Positions 9,030 to 21,553 of a stretch of 21,553 nucleotides of DNA are shown piece by piece. Location of the stretch: IMG/VR virus record IMGVR_UViG_3300039106_000765, positions 1-21,553 of that record; one strand, 5' to 3'. Under the pieces are notes generated by a model. It saw only the letters and a program-made list of their open reading frames with translations, made no database searches and was not told the origin of the DNA. The translations under genes and the position numbers were made by a program. How positions within the stretch are numbered: position 1 is the first letter of the stretch; every line of letters starts with the position of its first letter. The stretch is from a virus.

Positions 9030-9045
9030 CAAAAGCCCGTAAGGG

Positions 9046-9115: not shown

Positions 9116-9121
9116 TATTTT

Positions 9122-9268
9122 ATGAGGAAGAAAACAGATGAGGAGTTACGTATCCTAATGGAGTTACGTAGATCTAACGCTGCCTCCTATGTCCCGTCAA
9201 AAAAAGTTTACGTACGCAAGAAAAAATATCCCCAATTGTCAGTGCAGGAAGGTATAATAGAAGAATGA
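9122..9268 (+). CDS. 48-aa basic protein, leaderless
   Basis: MRKKTDEELRILMELRRSNAA then VPSKKVYVRKKKYPQLS: very basic, helical at the N-terminus, which suggests nucleic-acid binding. TTGACT-17-TAAAAT and then six bases to ATG make it a clear leaderless candidate. The stop overlaps the ATG of the Gp88 gene (ATGA). No family recognised. Confidence 0.65.
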   Translation: MRKKTDEELRILMELRRSNAASYVPSKKVYVRKKKYPQLSVQEGIIEE

Positions 9269-9987
9269 ACCCCAAACTAAAACGCTCTAACGATAGGAAA
9301 GTAACCAATGCTGTCAGTCCTAATGGTAAGACTCCGACAATTGCTAACACCTTTGGCCTCCCCGCAGGGAAAGAGTACTCCTGTCCTGGAGAAACCCCTA
9401 CCTGCAAAAAAGTCTGCTACGCAGGAAAACTTGAAAAGATCTACAAGGGAGTAAGAGATAGCCTCCTACACAATTGGGACCTATTAAAAGACGCTGATCA
9501 AGATACAATGCAATTGTTATTAATGGATATGATTGCAGACTTTAAAAAAGATTGTGACAAGCGCAATGCAGAAAAACTATTCCGCATTCACTGGGATGGA
9601 GATTTTTTCAATGATACTTACACCAACGCCTGGAAGACAACTATTCTTAATCATCCAGATGTACAATTCTGGGTCTACACAAGAGTAGAAAGCGCTGCAG
9701 GCATTCTAAAAGATATTACAAACTTATCTTTATATTACTCTACCGACGACGACAATAAAAATATTGCACAAGGTCTCTCTAGTCAAGGAATAAAACTAGC
9801 GTATCTTTCCCAAACCTTTGCACAAGGTAAAGAGGATATGCTAAACCTTATTGGCAAGAGTGGCGTCAAGTGTCCTGAGAACAATAAGAAAATTCCTCTC
9901 ATCTCTAAAGCAGGATCTGCATGCGTTACCTGTGGCCAATGCGTATATGAAAGAAATGATATTCTATTCTCTGCTAGTAAAAAGTGA
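9265..9987 (+). CDS. Gp88-family cysteine-rich phage protein
   Basis: A 240-residue protein. Residues 38-70 (C40, C47, C51, then YAG and 'VRDSLLHNW') and 'LFRIHWDGDFFNDTYTNAW' match the phage 'gene product 88' family known from mycobacteriophages and other actinophages. The C-terminal part has C203 and then C220, C223, C226 (ACVTCGQCV). Six or seven conserved-looking cysteines suggest a metal or Fe-S centre. The middle (HWDGDFF, VQFWVYTR, LSLYYSTDD, KLAYLSQ) alternates strands and helices as a TIM-barrel-like fold would. The biochemical role of the family is not established to my knowledge. It is coupled to the 48-aa gene and also has TATAAT (9253-9258) six bases before its own ATG. Length looks complete. 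Confidence 0.8.
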   Translation: MNPKLKRSNDRKVTNAVSPNGKTPTIANTFGLPAGKEYSCPGETPTCKKVCYAGKLEKIYKGVRDSLLHNWDLLKDADQDTMQLLLMDMIADFKKDCDKRNAEKLFRIHWDGDFFNDTYTNAWKTTILNHPDVQFWVYTRVESAAGILKDITNLSLYYSTDDDNKNIAQGLSSQGIKLAYLSQTFAQGKEDMLNLIGKSGVKCPENNKKIPLISKAGSACVTCGQCVYERNDILFSASKK

Positions 9988-9988
9988 T

Positions 9989-10017
9989 TTGACTATCCCC
10001 CGCCAAAACGATATAAT
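9989..10017 (+). promoter_or_regulatory. Promoter of 21-aa peptide gene
   Basis: TTGACT (9989-9994), 17 bp, TATAAT (10012-10017), just after the Gp88 stop. The leader holds CCGAAAGGA. Confidence 0.75.
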
Positions 10018-10040
10018 TGAACTGTCCGAAAGGAAAAACT

Positions 10041-10106
10041 ATGGAAGTCCTAATTGTCCTAATTGCCCTAAGTATCCTAGCCATATTTGGATTAGGGCAT
10101 GAGTGA
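10041..10106 (+). CDS. 21-aa hydrophobic peptide
   Basis: MEVLIVLIALSILAIFGLGHE: essentially one membrane helix. It has its own strong promoter and a good ribosome site (GAAAGGA, eight bases before ATG), which is why a frame this short is kept. Small holin-, inhibitor- or toxin-like membrane peptides look like this, but nothing decides the function. Confidence 0.55.
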   Translation: MEVLIVLIALSILAIFGLGHE

Positions 10107-10127
10107 TGTATCTCACACCTCTAGGAT

Positions 10128-10156
10128 TTGATATTTTCTAGCGACTCTGCTAGAAT
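10128..10156 (+). promoter_or_regulatory. Promoter with shared AACAAC leader
   Basis: TTGATA (10128-10133), 17 bp, TAGAAT (10151-10156), followed by TAATAACAACAAAACGAAAGGA. This unit lacks the upstream ATGTCCGATTT site seen at other units. Confidence 0.65.
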
Positions 10157-10187
10157 TGTAATAACAACAAAACGAAAGGAAGCAAAA

Positions 10188-10340
10188 ATGGGAAACTACC
10201 AAATCGGTGATAATTTCACTACCCTAACAAGTGGGGTAACAGGAGTTATCAAAGAAATCCACCCACAAGCATCTGGCTCGGTGCGTATTCTCCTTGATGT
10301 TCAGGGAAACGAGCGTTGGACAACTTGGTCTGCTAAGTAA
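10188..10340 (+). CDS. 50-aa beta-barrel-like phage protein
   Basis: MGNYQIGDNFTTLTSGVTGVIKEI...GSVRILLDVQGNERWTTWSAK. ATG 10188 is chosen from GAAAGGA upstream; the longer frame would include the promoter. The pattern 'G..FTTL.SGVTG.I.EI.PQ..GSVRI.LDV.G..RWTT' is a recurrent small protein in actinobacterial phages and reads like a KOW/SH3-type barrel. Function unknown. A pseudoknot element follows its stop. Confidence 0.65.
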   Translation: MGNYQIGDNFTTLTSGVTGVIKEIHPQASGSVRILLDVQGNERWTTWSAK

Positions 10341-10350
10341 GCAAACCAAA

Positions 10351-10383
10351 CCTCACCTGAGCAAGTGAAGGCTAAACTGCTCA
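10351..10383 (+). ncRNA. Pseudoknot element, copy 1
   Basis: Stem 1 CCTCAC (10351-10356) pairs with GTGAAGG (10365-10371, one bulged A). Loop C-TGAGCA-A. The A-rich linker ends in CTAAAC. TGCTCA (10378-10383) pairs with TGAGCA (10358-10363), giving an H-type pseudoknot. It lies ten bases after a stop codon. Confidence 0.65.
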
Positions 10384-10414
10384 CCCAAACCCCTAAATGT
10401 AAAGGAACCCGAAT

Positions 10415-10846
10415 ATGTCAAGGTATCAAAAATCAAAAGCCATCTCAGTAAAAATCGCAACAACAAAAGTAATTAAAGCGTTAGAGGAAAAACTAACACA
10501 ATTCAAGAAAGATTACTCAGCGCAAGAAGCGTTAGAAAAAAAGTTCGAGAAAGAACAAGAGGCGTATAGAAAAGCACTTATCGAATACGCTCTTGCCAAT
10601 GCTAAGTTAGCGACAAACTTTCGCACAAGTTATCGCTCTTGGAATAAAGTCCTAAACATTGACTTTGACATCTCAGTTGATGAATCAAAACTACCAAAAG
10701 AACCTGTTAGAAATTACAATGTCATAGGTTCACACGAATACAGCGAAACAGTAACAGAAATTGAGAACGCTGTTCGTATTCTTAAAATGACAGATGAGGA
10801 AGTTGTTAGCACTAGCACTTACAATGCTATTGCTCGTTATCTGTAA
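10415..10846 (+). CDS. Coiled-coil hypothetical protein
   Basis: A 143-residue protein. Residues about 18-65 form a long charged helix (VIKALEEKLTQFKKDYSAQEALEKKFEKEQEAYRKALIEYAL) with heptad character, probably an oligomerising coiled coil. The rest is mixed (RSWNKVLNIDFDISVDESK, ..YSETVTEIENAVRILKMTDEEV). Ribosome site AAAGGAACCC upstream. It is flanked on both sides by pseudoknot elements. Family not recognised; a structural or scaffold-type role is possible. Confidence 0.65.
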   Translation: MSRYQKSKAISVKIATTKVIKALEEKLTQFKKDYSAQEALEKKFEKEQEAYRKALIEYALANAKLATNFRTSYRSWNKVLNIDFDISVDESKLPKEPVRNYNVIGSHEYSETVTEIENAVRILKMTDEEVVSTSTYNAIARYL

Positions 10847-10879
10847 ATAGACGGGCAAGCAAACGCCCTGATACTACTA

Positions 10880-10908
10880 ACACCCTGAGCAAGGTGTAAA
10901 ACTGCTCA
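10880..10908 (+). ncRNA. Pseudoknot element, copy 2
   Basis: Stem 1 ACACC (10880-10884) pairs with GGTGT (10893-10897). Loop C-TGAGCA-A (10885-10892). Linker AAAAC. TGCTCA (10903-10908) pairs with the loop's TGAGCA (10886-10891). About 35 bases after the stop of the coiled-coil gene. Confidence 0.7.
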
Positions 10909-10916
10909 CTAAGTTT

Positions 10917-10963
10917 CATCTCTGCTAAGCCCCATGCCATGATGCGTGGGTATGCCTGAGATG
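10917..10963 (+). ncRNA. Two-stem RNA structure between pseudoknots
   Basis: Outer stem CATCTC (10917-10922) with GAGATG (10958-10963). Inner stem CCCATGC (10931-10937) with GCGTGGG (10944-10950), loop CATGAT. It sits exactly between pseudoknot copies 2 and 3 in non-coding sequence. Could be a terminator-like or regulatory fold; no T tract. Confidence 0.4.
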
Positions 10964-10965
10964 AT

Positions 10966-10993
10966 CTTCCTGAGCAAGAAGTAAAACTGCTCA
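10966..10993 (+). ncRNA. Pseudoknot element, copy 3
   Basis: Stem 1 CTTC (10966-10969) with GAAG (10978-10981). Loop C-TGAGCA-A. Linker TAAAAC. TGCTCA (10988-10993) pairs with TGAGCA (10971-10976). Followed by TTAATTTTTG, so this copy might also act in termination. Confidence 0.7.
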
Positions 10994-11004
10994 CTTAATT
11001 TTTG

Positions 11005-11091
11005 CCCATGGGCCGATGTGAGGTCCATCACAATGTCCAATTTATACTGTTTAAGATTGGTGTTTGTCAGCCCTATCTGCTAAGATAGTAT
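11005..11091 (+). promoter_or_regulatory. CCCATGGG palindrome, operator and promoter
   Basis: CCCATGGG (11005-11012), a partial ATGTG half-site, ATGTCCAATTTAT (11033-11045), then TTGTCA (11064-11069), 16 bp, TAGTAT (11086-11091) and the leader TTACAACAACGAAAGGA. Confidence 0.55.
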
Positions 11092-11114
11092 TACAACAAC
11101 GAAAGGAAGCCCTT

Positions 11115-11417
11115 ATGGAAAAAGAAAATATGTTTGCGGTTTTTATGGAAGCCTCAACAGAAGCAATAATGACAGATGAAATTGTCGATGAAGCGTCAGG
11201 CTTACTAGCAACTATTGGCGAAGGAGTAGACTTAGAAACTATCACTAGAGAACTATTCAATTATTCTCAATCGGTTACTGCTATGACTTTGACTAAGATT
11301 CTACACACCTTGTATTCACCAAAACAAATAGATGAGATGATGAACGAATATACAGATTCTTTATCTAAGGACTTAGTATCAGATATTTCACTATTCTTAG
11401 AAAAGGAAGGAAACTAA
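11115..11417 (+). CDS. Acidic helical hypothetical protein
   Basis: A 100-residue protein (MEKENMFAVFMEASTEAIMTDEIVDEASG...). ATG 11115 follows GAAAGGAAG and the shared leader; the longer frame begins inside the promoter. All-helical look with many Glu/Asp/Met and a C-terminal 'SKDLVSDISLFLEKEGN'. One base separates its stop from the next ATG, so the two genes are co-transcribed. Not recognised. Confidence 0.65.
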   Translation: MEKENMFAVFMEASTEAIMTDEIVDEASGLLATIGEGVDLETITRELFNYSQSVTAMTLTKILHTLYSPKQIDEMMNEYTDSLSKDLVSDISLFLEKEGN

Positions 11418-11418
11418 T

Positions 11419-11820
11419 ATGACTATTCCAGATTATTCACATCAAGTAATTATCAACTCACTACATGAGGAAATTGCTTTACTAAAATCACAACTAGCAG
11501 ATGTTCTTAGTAATTCAAAAAGAAACTATGAACACTATGAAATGCTACAAAAATCTATTCGTCATTTCTTTGAAAGCAATCGTAATGATGATACTTTTGA
11601 GTTTGACATTGATGAGGTAAATACTTTCCTTACCGCTCATGATATTGAAGCACTTAAGCGTGAGTATCGTGTTGAGTTCCGTATCGAAGGCACTATCGTT
11701 GTCGAAGCAGAAAACGAAGATGAAGCACAAGATATAGTAAATGAACTTGATGTAACACATTGGTCTGCTGAAGTTGAACACTTTGAAGCAGAAGCAACTA
11801 ATATAGAAGCAACCTTCTAA
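11419..11820 (+). CDS. Hypothetical protein with C-terminal 'eaen-DEAqdI' domain
   Basis: A 133-residue protein. Residues about 10-50 form a helix or coiled coil (INSLHEEIALLKSQLADVL). The last 50 residues (YRVEFRIEGTIVVEAENEDEAQDIVNEL) show the strand plus 'EAEN-EDEA' helix plan of small DpnD/PcfM-type domains found on phages and plasmids. AAGGAAGG precedes the start. A pseudoknot element follows the stop. Function unknown. Confidence 0.65.
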   Translation: MTIPDYSHQVIINSLHEEIALLKSQLADVLSNSKRNYEHYEMLQKSIRHFFESNRNDDTFEFDIDEVNTFLTAHDIEALKREYRVEFRIEGTIVVEAENEDEAQDIVNELDVTHWSAEVEHFEAEATNIEATF

Positions 11821-11836
11821 CTTTCCATAAGGGGAA

Positions 11837-11864
11837 ACTACCTGAGCATGTAGTAAAACTGCTC
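11837..11864 (+). ncRNA. Pseudoknot element, copy 4
   Basis: Stem 1 ACTAC (11837-11841) with GTAGT (11850-11854). Loop C-TGAGCA-T. Linker AAAAC. TGCTC (11860-11864) pairs with GAGCA (11844-11848). Sits 17 bases after the stop of the 133-aa gene. Confidence 0.7.
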
Positions 11865-11867
11865 GCA

Positions 11868-11949
11868 CCCCATGGGGCGATGTCCGATTTATACCATTTA
11901 GAATCTTTTAGTCTTAGGATTTGACTTTTGGTTATTCATCCTGTAAAAT
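11868..11949 (+). promoter_or_regulatory. CCCCATGGGG palindrome, operator and promoter of DUF932 gene
   Basis: CCCCATGGGG (11868-11877), ATGTCCGATTTAT (11880-11892), then TTGACT (11921-11926), 17 bp, TAAAAT (11944-11949), leader ATATCAACAAAACGAAAGGA. Confidence 0.65.
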
Positions 11950-11978
11950 TAAAATATCAACAAAACGAAAGGACAAAA

Positions 11979-12953
11979 ATGGCTCATGAGTTAGAAAGCG
12001 ATAAATCATTCGCTTCATTTAGACAACCTGCTTGGCATGGTTTAGGTACTGTGTTCAATGAGGAAGTTACTACAACCGAAATGTTAGAGTTAGCAAATCT
12101 TCATAAGTGGGATGTTCGCTTAGAGGAAGTTGTTATGCCTACACCGCTAGTATGCGATAAGAATTATTTTTTCGTTACCCGAACGAATCCATTTATCGAA
12201 GGACAAAATGATGTGCTTGGCGTAGTTGGCGAACGCTATCACACTCTACAAAATGAAGATTTATTTTCATTTGCTGACGCTATGCTTGATGGTGGTCGTT
12301 GGGAAACTGCTGGTTCAATCAAGGGTGGTCGTGTAGTATTTGGTTCTATTGCACTCAATCGCTCAATCGTGTTAGACCCTAATGGTGTAGCAGATAAGAT
12401 TGATAACTATCTATTGGTTCACACCTCACATGATGGTTCTGTATCTATTCAAGCAAGTGTTACACCTGTGCGTGTGGTATGCGCTAACACTCTCAATATG
12501 GCGTTGCGCTCTACTAAGCAATCATTCAAGATTCGCCATACTCAAACTGCTAATGGTAAAGTTCAAGCAGCCCGTACTGCTCTTGGATTAGCCAATGCGT
12601 ATCTTGATGACTTTAGCAAAATGGCTAATACCATGATTGAAAAAGAAATCAACGCTAAGCAATTCAACGATGTTCTACTCGCTGTCTACCCTAAGCCTAA
12701 TGATGATTCCAAAAAGGCTATGACAATGTGGAAAACAAAAATTGATGTTATCAATGACTTATATGTTGGCGATAACAATCACATGATTGCTGGTAATGCG
12801 TGGGGTGCATTTAACGCTATCACCGAACGACTAGATTGGTATCGTGGTTCTGGTGAATCTAAGTTAGCAGCAGCAAGTGGATTTGATTCTGCAATGAACG
12901 CAGAAAAGAATCGTATTCTTAAAACTGTTAATAGTGTGCTTCAAGTAGCATAA
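11979..12953 (+). CDS. DUF932 / TIGR03299-type phage-plasmid protein
   Basis: A 324-residue protein. The start at 11979 is preceded by CGAAAGGA; the longer frame runs into the promoter. The N-terminus 'MAHELESDKSFASFRQPAWHGLG', then 'VVGERYHTLQNEDLFSFADAML', 'GRWETAGSIKGGRVVFGS' and 'VRVVCANTLNMAL' are the signature segments of DUF932 (TIGR03299, phage/plasmid-like protein). The family is widespread on phages and plasmids and has no settled function; a role in DNA metabolism is often supposed. Length is normal for the family, and no frameshift is seen. It is a single-gene unit with its own palindrome, operator site and promoter, and it ends in a pseudoknot and then tRNA-Asp. Confidence 0.85.
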   Translation: MAHELESDKSFASFRQPAWHGLGTVFNEEVTTTEMLELANLHKWDVRLEEVVMPTPLVCDKNYFFVTRTNPFIEGQNDVLGVVGERYHTLQNEDLFSFADAMLDGGRWETAGSIKGGRVVFGSIALNRSIVLDPNGVADKIDNYLLVHTSHDGSVSIQASVTPVRVVCANTLNMALRSTKQSFKIRHTQTANGKVQAARTALGLANAYLDDFSKMANTMIEKEINAKQFNDVLLAVYPKPNDDSKKAMTMWKTKIDVINDLYVGDNNHMIAGNAWGAFNAITERLDWYRGSGESKLAAASGFDSAMNAEKNRILKTVNSVLQVA

Positions 12954-12959
12954 CAAAAT

Positions 12960-12986
12960 AATCCTGAGCATGATTTAAAACTGCTC
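12960..12986 (+). ncRNA. Pseudoknot element, copy 5
   Basis: Stem 1 AATC (12960-12963) with GATT (12972-12975). Loop C-TGAGCA-T. Linker TAAAAC. TGCTC (12982-12986) pairs with GAGCA (12966-12970). It ends three bases before the tRNA-Asp. Confidence 0.65.
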
Positions 12987-12989
12987 TTT

Positions 12990-13066
12990 GGTTCCGTAGC
13001 ATAGTTGGTTAATGCGCTACCCTGTCACGGTAGAGATCGTGGGTTCAAGTCCCATCGGAATCGCCA
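12990..13066 (+). tRNA. tRNA-Asp (GTC)
   Basis: Acceptor GGTTCCG with CGGAATC, D arm GCATAGTTGGTTAATGC, anticodon stem CTACC/GGTAG with loop CTGTCAC (anticodon GTC), T arm GTGGG-TTCAAGT-CCCAT, discriminator G and an encoded CCA (13064-13066). It lies directly behind the pseudoknot of the DUF932 unit and may be processed from that transcript. CCCATGGG follows at 13068-13075. Confidence 0.95.
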
Positions 13067-13084
13067 GCCCATGGGCAATCATAT

Positions 13085-13139
13085 CAAACCATACCAAACC
13101 ACCATATATCAAACCTCTATCTTATTTTATCTTCAAACC
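13085..13139 (+). repeat. CAAACC repeat cluster
   Basis: Four CAAACC copies (13085, 13095, 13110, 13134) in AT-rich non-coding DNA. The inverted form (GGTTTG) is clustered at 16336-16364 in the origin-like region. Confidence 0.5.
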
Positions 13140-13155
13140 TTTATTAAGAAATGAT

Positions 13156-13184
13156 TTGCTTTTTCCCCAATCTAGGAGTACAAT
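13156..13184 (+). promoter_or_regulatory. Leaderless promoter
   Basis: TTGCTT (13156-13161), 17 bp, TACAAT (13179-13184), six bases to the ATG at 13191. Confidence 0.6.
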
Positions 13185-13190
13185 TAAGAT

Positions 13191-13340
13191 ATGAACCCAC
13201 ATACAATCCAACAGTTAGTTAATGTTATATATGAGGATAATCTTTATCACTTTGAATTCCAGGAAAATATGGGGGGACCAGAGTGTGATTGCCACCTACA
13301 CCAAACCATGAACACTATCGTTAAATATTGGGGGGAATAA
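13191..13340 (+). CDS. 49-aa hypothetical protein, leaderless
   Basis: MNPHTIQQLVNVIYEDNLYHFEFQE..GGPECDCHLHQTMNTIVKYWGE. One CDC motif with neighbouring His residues could bind a metal. The leaderless promoter lies directly upstream and the stop overlaps the next ATG (TAATG). First of a chain of overlapping small genes up to 14724. Confidence 0.6.
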   Translation: MNPHTIQQLVNVIYEDNLYHFEFQENMGGPECDCHLHQTMNTIVKYWGE

Positions 13341-13489
13341 TGGACCTAGAAACATTAAGAGAGTATATCCGTCTTCACATAATTTCTTTGGAGCAAGACC
13401 TAGAGTCAAACCCTGAATCTATTAATGTTGTAGATATAGCAGGGCAGATAGAAGGATGTAAGCATATACTAGGAGTAATCAATGACTGA
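13340..13489 (+). CDS. 49-aa helical hypothetical protein
   Basis: MDLETLREYIRLHIISLEQDLESNPESINVVDIAGQIEGCKHILGVIND: two amphipathic helices, probably a helical hairpin. Overlaps its neighbours at both ends (TAATG before, eight bases after). Function unknown. Confidence 0.6.
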   Translation: MDLETLREYIRLHIISLEQDLESNPESINVVDIAGQIEGCKHILGVIND

Positions 13490-13709
13490 GAAGTATCCCC
13501 TTATCCCGTCGCATTTAGTCAAAGCACTTGAAGATAAGACTATTCCATTAATTGATCTTATGCACGGCCACCTCAAAGTTGAAATGCTGGACTGCGAGGA
13601 AGCCATGAAGGATAACCCTGACCGATTTTTGCAGGGATATATGGAGGCCTTGACAAACCTATACTGCATGACCTATAATTTAAGTATAGAAAGAGAGGCC
13701 CTACTGTAA
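13482..13709 (+). CDS. 75-aa hypothetical protein
   Basis: MTEKYPLIPSHLVKALEDKTIPLIDLMHGHLKVEMLDCEEAMKDN...: mainly helical with a conserved-looking 'RFLQGYMEALTNLYCMTYNLSIE' segment. AGGAGT within the preceding gene serves as ribosome site. Chained by overlap to both neighbours. Not recognised. Confidence 0.6.
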   Translation: MTEKYPLIPSHLVKALEDKTIPLIDLMHGHLKVEMLDCEEAMKDNPDRFLQGYMEALTNLYCMTYNLSIEREALL

Positions 13710-13882
13710 TGGCACGATATTCATTTATTACTGGTGAGACATATTCATTTGAATTCCCTGACGAAAAAGAGGGGACAGAAGGCTACGACCCTGAAGATTT
13801 ATACGATGCATACTGGAACGATGAACTTCCTGAAGATGTAGAGGTAGAAGAAAATGGGACGGGCCACGAATGGATAGACTAG
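13709..13882 (+). CDS. 57-aa very acidic protein
   Basis: MARYSFITGETYSFEFPDEKEGTEGYDPEDLYDAYWNDELPEDVEVEENG...: strongly acidic second half, comparable in character to the protein at 8074-8283. The start overlaps the preceding stop (TAATG). DNA mimicry or simple takeover-peptide roles are both open. Confidence 0.6.
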   Translation: MARYSFITGETYSFEFPDEKEGTEGYDPEDLYDAYWNDELPEDVEVEENGTGHEWID

Positions 13883-13938
13883 ATTTATTGTCAGTGGCCA
13901 ACGGTATACTAAATGGTGGAGAGGATGACAATGGGTAA
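13870..13938 (+). CDS. Possible 22-aa coupling peptide
   Basis: MDRLDLLSVANGILNGGEDDNG, overlapping the previous gene's end by 13 bases and the next gene's start by eight. It would keep the overlap chain unbroken and carry the next gene's GGAGAGGA ribosome site. Very short, so only a weak call. Confidence 0.3.
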   Translation: MDRLDLLSVANGILNGGEDDNG

Positions 13939-14362
13939 TTTTGTAGAATTGGATTATGATGAATGGTTTGATACCTATAAACCTATTAAGAACCATTTAG
14001 ACCCTACCGCCAGTTTTGACGGATGCATGTTTGAAACATATGATTCAGAATTAGAATTTGTTAAGTCTCAACGTCCCGACCATATTTGGATGTATGGTGA
14101 AGGGGATGACGGAGGTACCTATGTCTGGAGCGGATGGGGTTTTGTAAATCGTCTTGGTTATTTTATAACTGAAGTTCCTTGCCCGCCAACTGATACTATT
14201 CAGGTACTAGTATCTCATAACTGGTATTACTGTGAGAACTGCGACGCAGAGATGGAAGACCCTGATAATCTTATCCGTGACGCATTTCAAGAGCAGGATT
14301 TGGAAAAATGCCCTAAGTGTGCTACGATTGAAGAATTAACCCTAGTAGGATTGGAGAAGTAA
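13931..14362 (+). CDS. Hypothetical phage protein with zinc ribbon
   Basis: A 143-residue protein. ATG 13931 is chosen because GGAGAGGA ends five bases upstream; ATGs at 13913 and 13925 are in frame. It carries 'VELDYDEWFDTYKPIKNHLD', 'IWMYGEGDDGGTYVWSGWGFVNRLGYFITEVP' and a C-terminal zinc site (YCENCDAEM, then CPKCATIEE). The central Gly/Trp-rich block is a recurring feature of unnamed phage proteins. The stop overlaps the next ATG (TAATG). Function unknown. Confidence 0.65.
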   Translation: MGNFVELDYDEWFDTYKPIKNHLDPTASFDGCMFETYDSELEFVKSQRPDHIWMYGEGDDGGTYVWSGWGFVNRLGYFITEVPCPPTDTIQVLVSHNWYYCENCDAEMEDPDNLIRDAFQEQDLEKCPKCATIEELTLVGLEK

Positions 14363-14724
14363 TGGGAGCACGTACTAACTTTCATTTCAAGACTAATGAG
14401 GATACTTTAACCTTATACAGTCATTGGGGTGGAGATTCACGGAAAGAAGACTTGGCTCGTGCAATGAAGGCAGCACTACCAAGAAAGGGAGATGACTCAT
14501 ATGCATTGCGGATCATGGTATCGCAATTAATTGGGACCTCCTGGGATGAGCAGACAGGCTATGGCCTATTTGTAAACAATCCAGATGGAGCAGAAGAATC
14601 ATATGGACATCTTGAAATCAATCTAAACAATTGGACTGTAAACGATGACGGACATATTGTCACAATCGAACAGTTCATAGAGTACCACTTGACATCAGTG
14701 ACCGCCACTGGTATAATTAAATAG
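14362..14724 (+). CDS. Conserved hypothetical phage protein
   Basis: A 120-residue protein of the 'MGARTNFHFKT...TLYSHWGGD...ARAMKAALPR...SQLIGTSWDEQTGYGLFV' type, seen repeatedly in unrelated phages without an assigned role. The His/Trp-Gly-Gly segment and mixed alpha/beta pattern suggest a small globular fold. Its last 36 bases contain the strong promoter of the next gene, so the coding and control functions overlap there. Confidence 0.65.
   Translation: MGARTNFHFKTNEDTLTLYSHWGGDSRKEDLARAMKAALPRKGDDSYALRIMVSQLIGTSWDEQTGYGLFVNNPDGAEESYGHLEINLNNWTVNDDGHIVTIEQFIEYHLTSVTATGIIK
14689..14717 (+). promoter_or_regulatory. Perfect consensus sigma-70-type promoter
   Basis: TTGACA (14689-14694), 17 bp, TATAAT (14712-14717): both hexamers and spacer exactly consensus. 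It lies within the 3' end of the preceding gene and drives the isolated 52-aa gene. Confidence 0.85.
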
Positions 14725-14755
14725 TCAAACCTAACCCTAACCGAAAGGCAATACA

Positions 14756-14914
14756 ATGGCAAAAGCAACTAAAGCAAAAACATACCCCTACCTAGAGACT
14801 TGGGATACACGCTACGGCACCTCAGAGCGAGTTGTTCTTCGTAAGAATGGCAAGTTCGTAGACAACGTATCTCTAACTGCTCTTAAGCGAGGCCAACGGG
14901 TAGGCTCTCGCTAA
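14756..14914 (+). CDS. 52-aa basic protein in a one-gene strong unit
   Basis: MAKATKAKTYPYLETWDTRYGTSERVVLRKNGKFVDNVSLTALKRGQRVGSR. A Lys-rich N-terminal tail precedes what looks like a small beta fold; net basic. CCGAAAGG provides a ribosome site. A perfect consensus promoter upstream and a strong terminator downstream isolate it, so it is probably made in large amounts, for example as a nucleoid-, ribosome- or polymerase-binding takeover protein. Function inferred only from charge and context. Confidence 0.65.
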   Translation: MAKATKAKTYPYLETWDTRYGTSERVVLRKNGKFVDNVSLTALKRGQRVGSR

Positions 14915-14920
14915 CATAAG

Positions 14921-14990
14921 ATAAGGAGAAGGGGTTCTCCCTTATCACTAGGGCACTTGTGACTCATCCACTTGTGCCCTTTATCTTTTT
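14921..14990 (+). terminator. Hairpin plus rho-independent terminator
   Basis: First ATAAGGAGAA...TTCTCCCTTAT (14921-14945). Then AGGGCAC (14950-14956) pairs with GTGCCCT (14974-14980) with an inner GTG/CAC extension across a TT/TT internal loop, followed by TTATCTTTTT. The right arm may double as -35 (TTGTGC) for TACAAT at 14994-14999. Confidence 0.8.
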
Positions 14991-15018
14991 CTGATACAAT
15001 TAAATAGACTGGAGTGAT

Positions 15019-15249
15019 ATGAGTAGGTACGTCAGACATACAGAATCAAATGAAGAAAAAGTAGCAACCAAAATGGGCTCATTACTTTCAGATTTTACTT
15101 TAGATTTAGAATCTATTGGATATTATCTATCTAGGATATTACCATTTACAATCTTTGAAAGAGTAATGATTACAATGGACGCAGCAGATTTCTACCGTGC
15201 TGGTGGAAATGTAGATAAACTTGATACAGAAAGCGAGTACAGGGTATGA
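15019..15249 (+). CDS. 76-aa hypothetical protein
   Basis: MSRYVRHTESNEEKVATKMGSLLSDFTLDLESIGYYLSRILPFTIFERVMITMDAADFYRAG...: helical, with an amphipathic middle. GGAG seven bases before ATG. First gene after the terminator; its stop overlaps the next ATG (ATGA). Not recognised. Confidence 0.6.
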   Translation: MSRYVRHTESNEEKVATKMGSLLSDFTLDLESIGYYLSRILPFTIFERVMITMDAADFYRAGGNVDKLDTESEYRV

Positions 15250-15539
15250 AACCTCCAAGCATAGAAGATATGGAACTACAACTAAGCGACTCCAGATTAA
15301 TGGCAAATGGCATTAAAGAGTATATCTTCCTAATAGAAAACCTACAAGAGGGTGAGTTTGTTGATGACCCATTTGTTGAGATAATCGTAGACTCTATAAA
15401 AAGTGATAATGAAAGTTATGGAACATTTGATAATTCAGAAATATATACAAACCTTGACTATCTTCGTGGTATGCTAGATGTATATGAGAAGCAGGTAGAA
15501 TACCTGTCAGAGTTATTTGGAGAGGATACAAATGAGTAG
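15246..15539 (+). CDS. 97-aa acidic helical protein
   Basis: MKPPSIEDMELQLSDSRLMANGIKEYIFLIENLQEG...DYLRGMLDVYEKQVEYLSELFGEDTNE. Helical with a coiled-coil-like end. It overlaps the previous stop by four bases and the next gene by eight. Not recognised. Confidence 0.6.
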   Translation: MKPPSIEDMELQLSDSRLMANGIKEYIFLIENLQEGEFVDDPFVEIIVDSIKSDNESYGTFDNSEIYTNLDYLRGMLDVYEKQVEYLSELFGEDTNE

Positions 15540-15819
15540 CATGAATGCATATACATTAAAGATTGCGGTACTAAGTGATTTATATTATAACTACCGTGAC
15601 CAAGATCCATACAAGGAGTTTGCAGAGTACAACGATATCGGGCTACCACTTGCCTATGTCGTGCACAACAACCTGGCTGAGATAGGCCCAGAGGGCAGGG
15701 TATTTATAGAGGAAACCTATGACCTACTATGCTCTGCTATGGATATAGACCCAGAAGAGGAATACCATTCTTTCGAAGATATGCTAAATGAGCATAGCAT
15801 GAAAACCGAAGAAGAGTAA
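15532..15819 (+). CDS. 95-aa hypothetical protein
   Basis: MSSMNAYTLKIAVLSDLYYNYRDQDPYKEFAEYNDIGLPLAYVVHNNLAEIGPEGRVFIEETYDLLCSAMDI...: helical, Tyr-rich and acidic. ATG 15532 follows GGAGAGG, the same ribosome-site form used at 13931. 'DIGLPLAYVVHNNLAE' is typical of unnamed phage proteins near early regions. Last of a three-gene chain. Confidence 0.65.
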   Translation: MSSMNAYTLKIAVLSDLYYNYRDQDPYKEFAEYNDIGLPLAYVVHNNLAEIGPEGRVFIEETYDLLCSAMDIDPEEEYHSFEDMLNEHSMKTEEE

Positions 15820-15890
15820 CAAACCCTAAAACCCTTTTACGATCCTCTTAAAAAATATCGCCAAAGTTTTAGCCATGTTATAATATATTT

Positions 15891-16067
15891 ATGAGTCCAA
15901 GACATCAAGCCAAATACCAATTAGGTTCTCATTTTCTTTCTAGTTGGCATTACGATAGAAATGACAAACCTCATATCCATTTAACACCAAAGGAAAAGGT
16001 TTTGAAGTATAGTGGCATTGCTTATATAGTTTCTTTCTTTAAGTCCCGTCGGGCAAACAAAAAATAA
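15891..16067 (+). CDS. 58-aa basic protein, leaderless
   Basis: MSPRHQAKYQLGSHFLSSWHYDRNDKPHIHLTPKEKVLKYSGIAYIVSFFKSRRANKK. His- and Lys-rich with a hydrophobic patch (YIVSFF) near the end. TATAAT (15879-15884) stands exactly six bases before the ATG. Isolated gene just left of the repeat-rich region. Function unknown. Confidence 0.55.
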   Translation: MSPRHQAKYQLGSHFLSSWHYDRNDKPHIHLTPKEKVLKYSGIAYIVSFFKSRRANKK

Positions 16068-16550: not shown

Positions 16551-17168
16551 ATGAGTGATAACCAACTGGTCTTTAACTCTTTTCCACGATCAGGCAATGT
16601 CTACTCCTTAAACATATCTAAAGCATTTTTTCCTTCTATAATTTCAACAGCACATATGCCTCAAATCTTTTTTGTAAAAGATATAGACAATGTAACATTA
16701 TTTCGAAAACCTGAAGATGCTATATCTTCTTTAGTTTATATGCAATATATCCCTTATGCACTTTCCTTAAACAACTTTGATGAAAAGCAACCAAAGCAAA
16801 GTTTAATTACGGAAATAGCAAAAAATGAAACAAAATTATATAAAGTCTTTATAAAATATGCAATAGAAAGCGCTGATCTTATCTATATAGGCAAGTTTGA
16901 TGATTTAGTTAATAATCCTGTTAATCATTTTAAAAATATTGCAAAGAAATTTAACAGACCCTTATTTCCTGACCATAAACAAAGGTTTGTAGAGGTTAAA
17001 TCACAATTAGTAGGCACTCTTTGGGAGGATAAGCATGATGGTCATATCCCTAGAGAAAAATCAAATGAAAGAAAGCATATAGAACAAGTCGTTAACTCTT
17101 TGCCATTTATTCAAGAACTAAACCAAGAATACGAAGAGTTTATTCTTAAGTATAAGACTATTGTATAA
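16551..17168 (+). CDS. Sulfotransferase-family protein
   Basis: A 205-residue protein. Residues 8-20 (FNSFPRSGNVYSL) match the 5'-phosphosulfate loop of PAPS-dependent sulfotransferases, with Arg13-Ser14-Gly15 in the loop. 'VTLFRKPEDAISSLVY' (Arg52, Ser59/Ser60) matches the 3'-phosphate-binding segment. 'ADLIYIGKFDDLVNNPVNHFKNIAKKF' corresponds to the family's Y-E/D-D-L region. Such enzymes move sulfate from PAPS to hydroxyl or amine groups. The protein is shorter than typical sulfotransferases, so the acceptor domain is reduced. TACCAT six bases before ATG indicates a leaderless transcript. First gene of the right-hand cargo region. Substrate unknown. Confidence 0.65.
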   Translation: MSDNQLVFNSFPRSGNVYSLNISKAFFPSIISTAHMPQIFFVKDIDNVTLFRKPEDAISSLVYMQYIPYALSLNNFDEKQPKQSLITEIAKNETKLYKVFIKYAIESADLIYIGKFDDLVNNPVNHFKNIAKKFNRPLFPDHKQRFVEVKSQLVGTLWEDKHDGHIPREKSNERKHIEQVVNSLPFIQELNQEYEEFILKYKTIV

Positions 17169-17204
17169 CTAGGTATGTTCTTATAGGGGTAATAGTGGTC
17201 TTTC

Positions 17205-17233
17205 TTGACTTCCCCCCGAAATTTTGATATGAT
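17205..17233 (+). promoter_or_regulatory. Leaderless promoter
   Basis: TTGACT (17205-17210), 17 bp, TATGAT (17228-17233), six bases to the ATG at 17240. Confidence 0.75.
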
Positions 17234-17239
17234 TAAATT

Positions 17240-17464
17240 ATGATAACTAAAAAAAATAAAAAGCAAATGCACCAATACGAAGAGGATTTCATGTTTGCAT
17301 TAGAAAACCTCAAAAACGACATATCCAGATACCTGGAAGTTGCCAAGTCAGAGTACGCATCTCATAATGACATTACCAGAACTATCGCTCTTATTAATTG
17401 GACTTCTCGAACTGTAGCAGAAAATAAGGATGAATTAGAGATTAAGATCTTGGCAGCAGAGTGA
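17240..17464 (+). CDS. 74-aa helical hypothetical protein
   Basis: MITKKNKKQMHQYEEDFMFALENLKNDISRYLEVAKSEYASHNDITRT...: basic start, then amphipathic helices, ending ENKDELEIKILAAE. Clear leaderless promoter. The stop is followed one base later by the next ATG. Not recognised. Confidence 0.65.
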   Translation: MITKKNKKQMHQYEEDFMFALENLKNDISRYLEVAKSEYASHNDITRTIALINWTSRTVAENKDELEIKILAAE

Positions 17465-17465
17465 T

Positions 17466-17933
17466 ATGATTAAGCAGGTCAGAACAAAGAGCAATGCCTA
17501 TAGTACTGTAAAGTATGACAAATATGGAAACATACTAACTCCATCTAGGAAAAGGGAACTTAAGAAAGCAAAAGAGGAACCTATAAAGGGTCCTGAGTCC
17601 ATTAAAATTATAAGCCAGTATCCTAATATCTGCTCTGTTTGTAATGTTAAAATATCAGTTGGTACACAAATCTTGTGGAACAAAAAAAATAAAAACACAA
17701 AGCATGTAAATTGCTCCATGTTTAAGATAGTAATTGAAAAGTATGTCCATAAGCCAAAAATTTATAAAGGCAAAGACATGACTAAGGATATGTTCCTTCT
17801 TCCTGTGATACCTTGGAAGTGGACTCTCTATGCTGATTCAAATATTGTTTCATATGGTTATACCCATACTGAAGAAGATGCTAACATATCGGCAAATCAG
17901 GCTATTAACCAATATCGCCCTTTTAGGGCGTAG
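17466..17933 (+). CDS. Zinc-finger protein
   Basis: A 155-residue protein. Residues 1-45 are basic and probably disordered (TPSRKRELKKAKEEP). A C-x2-C...H-x2-C site (Cys56, Cys59, His80, Cys83; 'CSVCNVKISVGTQILWNKKNKNTKHVNC') resembles small nucleic-acid-binding zinc fingers, a C..C...I..G..I.W pattern also found in HNH- or PARP-type fingers. The C-terminal 50 residues (WTLYADSNIVSYGYTHTEEDANISANQAINQY) look like a small alpha/beta add-on. Second gene of its unit. Likely a DNA or RNA binder; no catalytic motif seen. Confidence 0.6.
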   Translation: MIKQVRTKSNAYSTVKYDKYGNILTPSRKRELKKAKEEPIKGPESIKIISQYPNICSVCNVKISVGTQILWNKKNKNTKHVNCSMFKIVIEKYVHKPKIYKGKDMTKDMFLLPVIPWKWTLYADSNIVSYGYTHTEEDANISANQAINQYRPFRA

Positions 17934-17990
17934 GAAGGTTTGTTACTTCTACTTTGCGCCGAACTTTAAAGAAATTGGTATACTTAATAC

Positions 17991-18074
17991 ATGAAACTAA
18001 TGATCAGCATTTTAGCCATAGCCCTAGTCACAACCATAGTTGGCATTACTCTACAGATAGTGGTGTTTAAATGA
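17991..18074 (+). CDS. 27-aa membrane peptide, leaderless
   Basis: MKLMISILAIALVTTIVGIT then LQIVVFK: one transmembrane helix. TATACT (17979-17984) lies six bases before ATG, and the stop overlaps the next ATG (ATGA). It leads the unit that includes the halogenase. Confidence 0.55.
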   Translation: MKLMISILAIALVTTIVGITLQIVVFK

Positions 18075-18199
18075 TAACTGGCGTAGCCTGTAAGTTCTGT
18101 AATGAACCTAATGCCACACAAGTAACTGTTAAAGGTGCTTATTGCGTTAATTGTTATATAGGGATTACGAAGGCTTCTATAAATTCCCTGGAAAATTGA
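18071..18199 (+). CDS. 42-aa zinc-knuckle protein upstream of halogenase
   Basis: MITGVACKFCNEPNATQVTVKGAYCVNCYIGITKASINSLEN: CxxC...CxxC spaced like a small zinc ribbon. It overlaps the 27-aa gene (ATGA), and its stop TGA overlaps the ATG of the halogenase (TGATG), so the three are translated as a chain. Function unknown. Confidence 0.6.
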   Translation: MITGVACKFCNEPNATQVTVKGAYCVNCYIGITKASINSLEN

Positions 18200-19791
18200 T
18201 GAAAACAAACAAAATAGTCATTGTTGGTGGAGGATCTGCAGGTTGGATGACTGCCACAACTTTAATTAAAGAATTTCCTACAAAAGAAATTGTGCTAATT
18301 GAATCTAAAGATGTTCCAACTGTTGGTGTTGGAGAGTCAACAATTGCAGGTATTAGACAATGGGCACAATTTATAGGATTAAAAGAAGAATCTTTCTTTA
18401 AAGAAACAGATGCTACTATTAAAATGAGCATTAAGTTTACAGACTTTTATAAAGAAGATTCGGGTAGTTTTCATTACCCATTTGGTGCTCCAGTAGTAGA
18501 TGGTAATAGAAATCCTTTTGCTGATTGGCATTTAAAAAAGTATTTAAACCCAGAAACTCCTGTAGAAGATTTTGTAAATTGTTTGTTTCCATCTGCTGCA
18601 TTATTCAATAATGATAAATATTCAGAAAACTTGTATAGTGAATTTCATAATTTTAACCCTAAGAATGACATCGCATACCATTTTGATTCCACTAAATTTG
18701 CTATATGGCTTAGGGATACATACTGCAAGCCTGCTGGTGTAACCCATATAATTTCAACTGTTATATCTGTTAATAAAGATAAAGATGGAATTAAAGATTT
18801 AGTTTTAGAAGATGGAAGTTTAATTGAAGCAGACTTGTTTATTGACTGTACTGGTTTTAAAAGTTTATTATTGTCAGAGTCATTGCTAGAGCCTTTTATA
18901 TCATACTCTGATATGTTGCCAAATAATCGTGCATGGGCTACTAGAGTTCCGTATATTAATGATGATGTAGAGATTCAAGGGTACACAAATTGCACTGCAA
19001 TATCTAATGGTTGGTGTTGGAATATCCCATTGTTCTCAAGACTAGGGGCTGGATATGTATATTCAGATAAATATATTACTCCAGAAGATGCTAAAGAAGA
19101 ATTCAAACAGTATTTAATGTCTAATAAAATGACTATACCTAGATCTAGAGAAGATGTTGAAAAATTAGAATTTAAAGATATTGAAATGAAAGTTGGCATC
19201 CATGAAAGAACATTTGTTAAAAATGTAGTAGCAATAGGTTTGTCTGCTGGTTTTATAGAGCCATTAGAAAGCAATGGTCTTTTTACTGTTCATGAATTTC
19301 TTTTTAAACTTATAGATATTCTTCAAAGAGGCAGTATTTCTCAATTTGATAGAGATATGTACAATGTTTCAGTAAAAGATTTATTTGATAGATTTGCTAA
19401 ATTTGTTGCCTTGCATTACGCACTTTCTCATAGAGAGGATAGTGAGTATTGGAAAGAAATAAATGATAAGGTTTTTAAAGATAGAAGTGGCGATCCATAC
19501 AATCAGTATCATGGTCGTACTGATACATTTTATGACATAATGTGGCGATATATGGAAAACAAAGGGCATACGTTGGGACCTTCAGGTATTACATATATTG
19601 CAACTGGAATGAATCTTAACATGATAAATGACTATAGATTTATAGATATTAAAAATAGAATTAATCCTACAATAGTAGAAGAAATAAACAAAGTTATTTG
19701 TTTATGGGAAGAAAGAAAATTAAAGTGGAATATGGCTTCAAGTAACTCTAAAACAATGAAGCAATACTTATTAGAAAAGTATCATCAATAA
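18199..19791 (+). CDS. Flavin-dependent halogenase (tryptophan halogenase family)
   Basis: A 530-residue protein, full length for the family. Start 18199 (MKTNKIVIVGGGSAGW) is chosen because the ATG overlaps the preceding stop; the 16 extra upstream codons belong to the other gene. FAD-binding GGGSAGW at residues 10-16 and GVGEST at 43-48. Lys75 in 'ATIKMSIKF' aligns with the catalytic Lys79 of PrnA/RebH. WCWNIP at 272-277 is the diagnostic WxWxIP motif, and 'FIEPLESNG' gives Glu357, equivalent to PrnA Glu346/RebH Glu357. 'LFIDCTGF' is the usual C-terminal flavin segment. These enzymes use FADH2, O2 and halide to form HOCl/HOBr, which a lysine relays to an activated substrate. Cyanophages carry such genes (VirX1 is a characterised viral iodinase). 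A separate flavin reductase is needed; none is visible. Substrate unknown. Confidence 0.92.
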   Translation: MKTNKIVIVGGGSAGWMTATTLIKEFPTKEIVLIESKDVPTVGVGESTIAGIRQWAQFIGLKEESFFKETDATIKMSIKFTDFYKEDSGSFHYPFGAPVVDGNRNPFADWHLKKYLNPETPVEDFVNCLFPSAALFNNDKYSENLYSEFHNFNPKNDIAYHFDSTKFAIWLRDTYCKPAGVTHIISTVISVNKDKDGIKDLVLEDGSLIEADLFIDCTGFKSLLLSESLLEPFISYSDMLPNNRAWATRVPYINDDVEIQGYTNCTAISNGWCWNIPLFSRLGAGYVYSDKYITPEDAKEEFKQYLMSNKMTIPRSREDVEKLEFKDIEMKVGIHERTFVKNVVAIGLSAGFIEPLESNGLFTVHEFLFKLIDILQRGSISQFDRDMYNVSVKDLFDRFAKFVALHYALSHREDSEYWKEINDKVFKDRSGDPYNQYHGRTDTFYDIMWRYMENKGHTLGPSGITYIATGMNLNMINDYRFIDIKNRINPTIVEEINKVICLWEERKLKWNMASSNSKTMKQYLLEKYHQ

Positions 19792-20063
19792 TGCAATGGG
19801 TTTTAGCAATTAAAACCATGTTTCATAAAGAGTATTGGAATAAAGCGAATACTATTGAGTTTTTTGCGTTTATGGTTAAGTTAATGATTATATTCCCAGG
19901 TTTAATATTTGGAAAACAATTTTGGTGGCTATACATATTTGCCTTATTTTCTAGTCTATCTTTAATTTGGTCATCAACAGTAAAAACTCTGCCTACTATA
20001 ATTTGGTTTAATATAGGATGGTCTATTCTTGCTACTATTGCGATATTAAAATATTGGATTTAA
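19791..20063 (+). CDS. Three-helix membrane protein coupled to halogenase
   Basis: A 90-residue protein with hydrophobic segments at about residues 23-43, 45-62 and 68-88 and many Trp/Phe. Its ATG shares a base with the halogenase stop (TAATG), so the two are translated together. The link suggests a membrane partner: halide or product transport, or anchoring of the enzyme. No family recognised. Strongly AT-rich like its neighbours. Confidence 0.6.
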   Translation: MQWVLAIKTMFHKEYWNKANTIEFFAFMVKLMIIFPGLIFGKQFWWLYIFALFSSLSLIWSSTVKTLPTIIWFNIGWSILATIAILKYWI

Positions 20064-20109
20064 ATTCATCCCAAATACATTCTGTTGGAAATTAGGGTAT
20101 AATAGATTT

Positions 20110-20718
20110 ATGCCATATATTGTCAACAATCAATCTGTAGGTCATAATCCAGTTGAAATAGAAAGAGCACCCTCTTATGTTGAGTTTTTTGAAAAAATTG
20201 GAAAATCTAGAGACAATATAATAGTTATTCCAAATTTTCTTTCTGACGAACAAATAAAATATTTAGTTGATCAAATAGATGAAAGAAAATTATTTAGTTT
20301 TGTTTCTCAAAAAGATCATGAAGGAAATCCTACATCATGGATGCATACTTATAAAGAAATTGCAGATAAAGATAAAATTACTAAAAAAGTTTTAGATGAA
20401 GTTAAAAAAGCATATGACTATCAAAACATAAAACCAAAAGACAATACGCTCACAATAACAAAATGGGAGACTGGAAGTAAATTAAGTTTGCATGTTGATG
20501 ATCTTGGGTATGTTACAGATAATCATCTACCAACACTAATCTATTTAAATGATGATTATGAGGGTGGAGAGTTAGGTTTTGCTACACATAATCTTATCAT
20601 TAAGCCTAAGAAGGGCGACCTTATTATATTCCCTGGAAATATGCACTACGCACATGAAGTATTTGAGGTTTTGTCTGGCACAAGGTATACCCTTCCTATC
20701 TGGTTTACAATACCATAG
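20110..20718 (+). CDS. 2-oxoglutarate/Fe(II)-dependent oxygenase (prolyl 4-hydroxylase-like)
   Basis: A 202-residue protein. The C-terminal half holds the double-stranded beta-helix: iron ligands His128 and Asp130 (LSLHVDD), 'PTLIYLNDDYEGGELGF' as the family's Y-LN-d-y-GGeL strand, distal ligand His182 (HYAHEV) and Arg192 (GTRYTLPIWF), which would hold 2-oxoglutarate. This is the P4Hc/PKHD type common in phages, where the targets are rarely known; candidates are proteins, nucleotides and small molecules. The N-terminal 100 residues are helical and include 'IIVIPNFLSDEQIKYLV', the usual entry of such enzymes. TATAAT (20098-20103) stands six bases before ATG (leaderless). All active-site residues are present. 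Confidence 0.88.
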   Translation: MPYIVNNQSVGHNPVEIERAPSYVEFFEKIGKSRDNIIVIPNFLSDEQIKYLVDQIDERKLFSFVSQKDHEGNPTSWMHTYKEIADKDKITKKVLDEVKKAYDYQNIKPKDNTLTITKWETGSKLSLHVDDLGYVTDNHLPTLIYLNDDYEGGELGFATHNLIIKPKKGDLIIFPGNMHYAHEVFEVLSGTRYTLPIWFTIP

Positions 20719-20732
20719 GGTATAATTAATTA

Positions 20733-20999
20733 ATGACAAACAAAAATTCAGAAATTCATCAAAAGAAAAGAAAACTATTAGATGGATCTGAAGTAGACGA
20801 TTACGATTATCCTATTGACCTAATATTGCATACAAGAGCACCAGGAAAATGGAAACTAATTGATCTTGAAACAGGTCAAGAGTATCTTGGATCAGAAATA
20901 TCTCATGAAACATTTGGCGAAGTTTTACGTAGTAAGGTAGCAAAATCTAAAATAGGATCTTGGTTTAAAACAAAAGGAAGAGTAATAAAAAATGGATAA
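20733..20999 (+). CDS. 88-aa unknown protein between two oxygenases
   Basis: A Lys-rich protein. The N-terminus (MTNKNSEIHQKKRKLLDGSEVDDYDYPIDLIL) is polar, and the centre reads 'RAPGKWKLIDLETGQEYLGSE', a small beta-fold segment. TATAAT (20721-20726) is six bases before ATG (leaderless). The last eight bases overlap the next gene's start, so it is co-translated with the flavin monooxygenase. Not recognised. Confidence 0.6.
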   Translation: MTNKNSEIHQKKRKLLDGSEVDDYDYPIDLILHTRAPGKWKLIDLETGQEYLGSEISHETFGEVLRSKVAKSKIGSWFKTKGRVIKNG

Positions 21000-21553
21000 T
21001 ACTAACAAGCCTATAACATTTCATTGGATGTGGAGAAGGCATTGGCAAATAACTGACAGCATTGAACACTTAGACCTTAATGGAATTATGCAAATGGCAA
21101 AAGAGTTAGATGGTGCTGGAGTAAAATCTGTTTTGCTTCCATATGGTCCAGGTGGTATAGATTTTTCCTTAGTTATTTCAGACGCATTAAAGGCAACAGA
21201 TCAATTAATTATGACAATTGCCTTACCAGCCTATGGAGTAAGTCCAGATTATGCTGCTAAGATTTGTGAAACATTAAATCGTTTTTCACCTGGAAGAATT
21301 GGTGTAAATCTTGTTGCTGGAAGATGGGGAGATGAAGGAAATGGCCATTCTGAAAAGTTGGTCATAGATCATTATATGCATAATCCATCACTCATAGATA
21401 CCCTTGAAAAAAGGGTAGGAATATCTGCAGTTTGGATGGATAAAACTATGGATTTAATGAAACGTCATCAGCACAAAACACATATGGCAGTTGTTGGTTC
21501 TTCAGACACAACAATTGGGATAGCAAACAAACATTGCGAATATATATATGTAG
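20992..21553 (+). CDS. Luciferase-like flavin monooxygenase, SsuD-like (3' end outside window)
   Basis: 187 codons are visible and the frame is open to the right edge. 'FHWMWRRHW..TDS', 'MAKELDGAGVKSVLLPYGPGG', 'TDQLIMTIALPAYGVSPDYAAKICETLNRFSPGRIGVNLVAG' and 'HMAVVGSSDTTIGIANKHCEYIYV' follow, in order, the TIM-barrel segments of bacterial-luciferase-type enzymes. They are closest in plan to alkanesulfonate monooxygenase SsuD (TLDRLS-GR-FNLVTG, then GGSSD.A.ELAAEHVDLYL). Such enzymes use reduced FMN and O2 to oxidise small molecules; SsuD releases sulfite from alkanesulfonates. ATG 20992 overlaps the previous stop. The active-site C-terminal part lies outside the window, so substrate class is a guess. 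Confidence 0.8.
   Translation, partial: MDNTNKPITFHWMWRRHWQITDSIEHLDLNGIMQMAKELDGAGVKSVLLPYGPGGIDFSLVISDALKATDQLIMTIALPAYGVSPDYAAKICETLNRFSPGRIGVNLVAGRWGDEGNGHSEKLVIDHYMHNPSLIDTLEKRVGISAVWMDKTMDLMKRHQHKTHMAVVGSSDTTIGIANKHCEYIYV

Follow-up and report, generated by a model that had tools for sequence, protein, structure and literature searches.

We analysed the virus record IMGVR_UViG_3300039106_000765 of IMG/VR, which derives from a lake virus, is classed as linear and whose entire 21,553 bases are called the window here, and found at its right-hand end a group of enzyme genes that we tentatively read, at somewhat less than an even chance, as an oxidation module of freshwater actinophages that has a variable sulfotransferase and an optional halogenase with its membrane protein and would act on a host molecule. 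A reading made earlier from the letters of this DNA (the sequence-only reading) had seen a tailoring cassette of four enzymes: a 3'-phosphoadenosine 5'-phosphosulfate (PAPS) sulfotransferase, a flavin-dependent halogenase, an Fe(II)/2-oxoglutarate (2OG) oxygenase and a flavin monooxygenase. All four genes are real (Table 1), and their families, motifs and folds support enzymes of the tailoring type. The single cassette did not hold, with the sulfotransferase gene being a clean insertion and the halogenase lying upstream in 5 of 41 loci of the monooxygenase; comparison with relatives indicates that it is three units of different history, namely the 2OG oxygenase with a small gene, o88, and the luciferase-like monooxygenase (LLM), the halogenase with a membrane protein that we call MEM, and the sulfotransferase.

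Relatives were collected with scans based on peptide patterns, which are biased to close relatives, and open reading frames were called mechanically. The scan with the LLM fragment resulted in 129 relatives and the scan of IMG/VR with MEM in 228, of which 80 each were fetched; counts are of contigs, many of them near-identical. In all 84 LLM loci o88 adjoins LLM, with a 2OG gene no more than 2.5 kb upstream, which bears out the coupling of the small gene to the monooxygenase that had been proposed; in the window the two genes overlap by 8 bases. The HxD...H...R motif is present in the 2OG gene of the window and in 76 of 76 orthologues. The end of the contig cuts the LLM of the window, and its completion could be followed in the relatives, where the full LLM has ~285 residues and is usually fused to a second 2OG domain: in 69 loci this domain follows in frame, for a total of 464-494 residues, and in 10 loci a gene of its own, placed immediately after LLM, encodes it.

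Among 42 distinct sequences of the fused domain, 40 have P, S or A in place of the first iron histidine and 39 have Y in place of the second (aligned columns), while I403, D405, G407, D410, N412 and R465 are invariant. Because the iron histidines are lost while neighbouring residues are invariant, we read this C-terminal domain as a conserved, probably catalytically dead 2OG oxygenase. A count by regular expression, in which 44 of the 69 fusion C-terminal domains appeared to keep HxD...H...R, was rejected; the pattern had caught a variable HKD six residues downstream. Two divergent fusions (L076 and L089) keep both histidines, with HxN replacing HxD. Most matches from structure searches with the model of the fusion span residues 5-287, so the fold of the C-terminal domain is assigned from Pfam and PHROG hits.

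The closest PDB sequences to the LLM of the window are the SsuD/MsuD alkanesulfonate monooxygenases, a weak but significant match, and the fragment reaches 27.6 bits against Pfam Bac_luciferase where the cut-off is 27.9. The complete LLM of a relative (L006) forms a luciferase-like barrel in its AlphaFold model (residues 4-289, Z 17.6 to CmoJ and SfnG), with structure matches at Z 16-18 over about 250 residues that are broad across the LLM family and include F420 enzymes. No LLM relatives were found among phage isolates, and two short-peptide-pattern scans of 84,980 prokaryotic genomes, which distant ones could escape, showed no cellular relatives. A search for a flavin reductase, advised by the sequence-only reading, found neither of the two families searched (PF01613 and PF03358) in 20 phage records. 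In 47 of 56 loci LLM is followed by a sulfotransferase gene no more than 6 kb downstream. In several of these phages, genes for PstS-like phosphate-binding proteins also occur near the LLM region (L095 9752-10795, L351 17875-18966 and L353 8143-9186).

The halogenase gene is, judged by its matches, a full-length Trp_halogenase with intact motifs. It matches Pfam Trp_halogenase at 8e-102 (342 bits; cut-off, 21) and phrog_2928 at 8e-144; its closest solved structure is VirX1 (6qgm, 1e-89), with which GGGSAGW, DATIKMSIKF, GWCWNIP and FIEPLES align, and the GxGxxG, catalytic Lys and WxWxIP motifs of halogenases are all present (GGGSAGW, DATIK and GWCWNIP). The final base of the halogenase gene is also the first base of the MEM start codon, and the coupling suggested for these two genes agrees with the relatives: of 80 MEM loci, 72 have an adjoining halogenase, which is upstream of MEM in 63 and downstream in 9. 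Among the eight others, one MEM gene starts 42 bases into its contig. MEM has no Pfam or PHROG family and no match among 50,697 phage records. Between the window and the relative L356 the MEM proteins are 76% and the halogenases 31% identical, so that MEM is better conserved than the enzyme beside it.

MEM without a detectable halogenase was seen in L295, L298, L301, L304, L306 and L315. In L295, L301 and L315 it sits between primase-type and polymerase-type genes, a position that holds MEM plus halogenase in L297, L299 and L329, and loss of the halogenase from the three MEM-only loci is possible. A second halogenase, 26% identical to that of the window, occurs in the 112.9-kb relative G001 (L097 10006-11631), where genes for DNA polymerase III and primase flank it, and in G003, G004 and G005.

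The divergent sulfotransferase gene probably encodes a PAPS sulfotransferase, as its modelled fold supports. The product itself has no Pfam match; the profile of a sister family, one member of which is above the cut-off for Pfam Sulfotransfer_1, matches it at 30 bits. In its AlphaFold model (predicted local distance difference test score, pLDDT, 85) the 50 best-aligned PDB entries are all sulfotransferases, the best being STF9 (Z 13.5, 4.1 A over 185 residues). Both the PRSGN motif of the 5'-phosphosulfate loop and the R(x7)S motif for the 3'-phosphate are present, and P12, R13, R52 and S60 are invariant in an alignment of 24 sequences (A3). A homologue with 46% identity occurs in L355, a phage with halogenase and MEM, ~5 kb upstream of an operon of adenosine 5'-phosphosulfate (APS) kinase, DUF2061, halogenase and MEM. 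APS kinase is also found in six of the seven large LLM-carrying records (98-119 kb); the exception, G001, likewise has no match to the sulfotransferase families tested. This distribution, in few genomes, fits a supply of PAPS for the sulfotransferases.

The same enzyme classes recur in other actinophages. In L351, L354 and L356 the gene order is LLM, Sulfotransfer_2, Asp_Arg_Hydrox (of the 2OG superfamily), APS_kinase with a cytidylyltransferase-like end, DUF2061, Trp_halogenase and MEM (Pfam families assigned for L356); these genes overlap or nearly abut, the operon of L356 occupying positions 4122-9144, and the next 4 kb hold WhiB and a second LLM. Variants of this operon occur in L352 and L355. 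G030 is without the window-type LLM, but a different LLM, a 2OG gene and a sulfotransferase-like gene are grouped there in a stretch of at most 4 kb. Of the 80 MEM loci, 23 combine halogenase, LLM and APS kinase. An LLM (PF00296) was found in 11 of 24 MEM contigs vs 1 of 18 controls, contigs picked for their major head protein (Fisher p 0.005), a value that serves as a guide and not as a test, the contigs being related and of unequal length. The sequence-only reading had advised looking for the gene set in other phages; its co-occurrence is supported for the enzyme classes, drawn from different families, and not for one cassette of four cargo genes. This recurrence of classes from different families is the strongest sign that the genes have a function in common. 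That unrelated actinophages drew on different genes to build up a like set of enzymes suggests that these viruses chemically alter some host molecule.

That the locus belongs to a phage was supported. G001 is collinear with nearly the whole window, most blocks being ~80-88% identical in nucleotides, and positions 18096-21553 are collinear with it at 85% nucleotide identity, so that the right-hand end is neither a mis-assembly nor host DNA, a concern that had been raised for it. WhiB, which is exclusive to Actinobacteria and serves as an actinophage marker (PMC10202952), exceeded its cut-off in 22 of 27 LLM-carrying contigs, and the six tested records of 98-119 kb are all among the 22; the window itself has no WhiB match. 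A window protein that we call DUF932-like has its closest relatives in Streptomyces phages. Taken together, these markers indicate that the window virus and its relatives are most likely actinophages. The Nanopelagicales phage isolates (~39 kb) of PMC10202952 are a different lineage.

From the gene order, conservation, folds and motifs described here we propose a mechanism in which complex formation, a common substrate, the sequence of steps and the timing in infection are inferred. The conserved core would consist of an active Fe(II)/2OG hydroxylase, an adaptor-like o88 and an LLM fused to, or followed by, a dead 2OG copy, which may pair with the active hydroxylase and serve as a contact surface. 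The LLM-2OG fusion and the unbroken triad argue that the hydroxylase and a flavin (or F420) monooxygenase work together. During infection the two would form a single complex that acts on one small molecule or on one surface group; the use of F420 is considered because F420 enzymes are among the structural matches, and host reductases would supply reduced flavin because no flavin reductase of the two families is encoded. The variably placed sulfotransferase would then sulfate the oxidised product with PAPS that the phage APS kinase, where present, could provide. As an optional extension, the halogenase would act on an electron-rich ring, with MEM serving its reaction or product at the membrane. 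That all of the enzymes share one substrate, we infer. A more far-reaching form seems to us rather improbable: freshwater actinophages would have assembled, repeatedly and from non-homologous genes, a single pathway that oxidises, sulfates and halogenates one host-derived compound in the course of infection, in which viral halogenases have in MEM a membrane partner of their own and the fusion of LLM to the dead 2OG domain is a new kind of two-oxygenase complex.

Several observations weigh against this mechanism. The sulfotransferase gene is a clean insertion or deletion that is absent from the closest relatives: L002-L004 align to window position 16553 and resume at 17174, with ~120 bases between, resulting in ~500 bp fewer. 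A halogenase lies upstream in only 5 of the 41 LLM loci with sufficient upstream sequence. Because of this low count and the simple insertion, halogenase and sulfotransferase may act on other substrates. No gene for a scaffold-forming enzyme or a precursor was found among the scanned genes of the window and relatives, and 2OG oxygenase and sulfotransferase genes are so common in these phages that co-occurrence by chance becomes more likely. Relatives of the APS kinase-like protein in phages are annotated only as kinase or hypothetical, which leaves the protein a candidate for making PAPS. Kinship among the contigs makes the counts non-independent, and the L006 fusion model is moderate (pLDDT 74) and of a single protein.

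A different use of the enzymes, which we hold to be unlikely, is glycan decoration, with hydroxylases, sulfotransferases, a methyltransferase and a carbamoyltransferase modifying a glycan of the host envelope or of virion proteins to block superinfection or shield the virion. G001 encodes a carbamoyltransferase, glycosyltransferases and an FkbM-type methyltransferase 8-15 kb downstream of LLM (L095 12806-14242 and 16087-19357), and SGNH/GDSL-like genes are downstream of LLM in 50 of 56 loci. However, the LLM module of G001 is several kb from the glycosyltransferases, the gene-order tables show no sugar transferases beside LLM, and flavin halogenases, as is generally known, target aromatic rings and not sugars.

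It is quite improbable, in our view, that the genes are independent cargo, each acting alone at a variable site, with co-occurrence due to a hot spot and to their abundance in aquatic phages. Such an origin would agree with the clean insertions of the sulfotransferase and of an O-methyltransferase between relatives, the lack of a halogenase in most LLM loci, the second halogenases elsewhere in several genomes and the low GC; the greater A/T-richness noted earlier is real, at 32.0% GC for positions 16551-21553 vs 38.9% for 7001-16000. The sequence-only reading had also taken private leaderless promoters as a mark of separately acquired cargo. The promoters exist, and a TATAAT-like box lies 5-8 nt before the ATG of the 2OG gene in 71 of 75 relatives; their use as a sign of acquisition was rejected, since the same boxes precede tail-type genes. 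TATAAT stands exactly 6 nt ahead of an ATG or GTG at 9265, 15891, 20110 and 20733 (+) and at 1343, 1898, 2678 and 3168 (-), and leaderless-type promoters occur on tail-type and early genes alike. Independence is opposed by the triad kept in all 84 loci, the fusion of LLM to 2OG, the steady pairing of halogenase with MEM, the tightly packed operons in other phages and the frequency of LLM in MEM contigs relative to controls, although the last is not phylogenetically independent.

The remaining two explanations are far weaker. For DNA or nucleotide modification, o88 would mark a nucleotide-sugar or base-modification pathway as in the arabinosylating T-even phages. It matches phrog_4098 (1e-8), and its middle part, ~50 residues long, aligns with the C-terminal tail of a T-even protein that adjoins a phosphoheptose-isomerase-type gene and is called ORF53_52c in RB69, a candidate for uridine diphosphate-arabinose formation (PMC6024577); the identity to the tail of a Klebsiella phage protein is 47% over 51 residues. 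Because the o88-like domain occurs also as a stand-alone 57-residue protein, and no gene of the thymidylate synthase/hydroxymethylase family was found in 12 of these phages, we take the likeness to mean that the proteins have one small domain in common. DNA modification is not known to involve an LLM, a sulfotransferase or a halogenase, and we hold this explanation to be very improbable. Sulfur scavenging, in which an SsuD-like LLM and TauD-like 2OG enzymes release sulfite from sulfonates, would suit the best sequence matches of LLM and the interpretation of APS kinase genes as sulfate assimilation (PMC10914622), but is highly unlikely given that the 2OG gene of the window is prolyl-hydroxylase-like and not TauD-like, that the phages carry sulfotransferases, which use PAPS, and that the structural matches of LLM are broad.

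Two further genes of the region, o74 and o155, had no family above cut-off in Pfam and PHROG scans. At a second variable site, window positions 17714-17894, L002-L005 hold ~750 extra bases with an O-methyltransferase-like gene. Elsewhere the window has a tRNA-Asn (4705-4778) and a tRNA-Asp (12990-13066).

Table 1. Features at the right-hand end of the window, in window coordinates.
Feature	Coordinates	Strand	Basis or remark
Sulfotransferase (putative), 205 aa, divergent, variable gene	16551..17168	+	motifs, fold, insertion pattern
o74, small protein, no assigned family	17240..17464	+	conserved (97%) in halogenase-bearing relatives
o155	17466..17933	+	N-terminal part conserved in relatives
Flavin-dependent halogenase, Trp_halogenase / VirX1 type, 530 aa	18199..19791	+	Pfam, PHROG, VirX1 alignment
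MEM, 90-aa membrane protein accompanying phage halogenases	19791..20063	+	halogenase neighbour in relatives
TATAAT, leaderless-type start of 2OG gene	20098..20103	+	6 nt before ATG
Fe(II)/2OG oxygenase, prolyl-4-hydroxylase-like, motif intact	20110..20718	+	PF13640 3e-12
TATAAT, leaderless-type start of o88	20721..20726	+	6 nt before ATG
o88, 88-aa LLM companion	20733..20999	+	adjoins LLM in 84/84 loci
LLM, cut at 187 codons by contig end	20992..21553	+	SsuD/MsuD match 1.5e-8

Halogenases and 2OG oxygenases of phages are familiar from earlier years but, to our knowledge, have no known role. The window halogenase shares closest structure, Pfam and PHROG families and phage-borne location with VirX1 of cyanophage Syn10 and the cyanophage tryptophan halogenases, but differs from these in being at most about 46% identical to the halogenases in the phage collection, in being followed by MEM and in its actinophage lineage. 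Likewise, the phage LLM has the fold of SsuD/MsuD and other LLM oxidoreductases, with a significant sequence match, but is shorter and usually fused to the degenerate 2OG domain, and the window-type 2OG gene, which has the family and motif of the cyanophage 2OG oxygenases (phrog_61 and phrog_2297), is unlike them locked to o88 and LLM and accompanied by a second, dead copy. The freshwater phages of the COBRA study (PMC10914622) are similar in habitat, in carrying WhiB and in their APS kinase genes; there, phage cysC was assigned to assimilatory sulfate reduction, and the main text makes no mention of sulfotransferases. In contrast, the APS kinase-like gene here has a 2OG oxygenase gene immediately on one side and DUF2061-halogenase-MEM on the other, and this series of genes also includes a sulfotransferase. 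We found no report of this gene set in the open-licence literature. The fixed partners, which are MEM with the halogenase, the 2OG oxygenase with o88 and LLM, and APS kinase with sulfotransferase in the operon of other phages, would give these enzymes testable complexes and offer a chemical logic in which PAPS-dependent sulfation is joined to oxidation and halogenation; at least within this operon, phage cysC may thus be read in another way than as sulfate assimilation.

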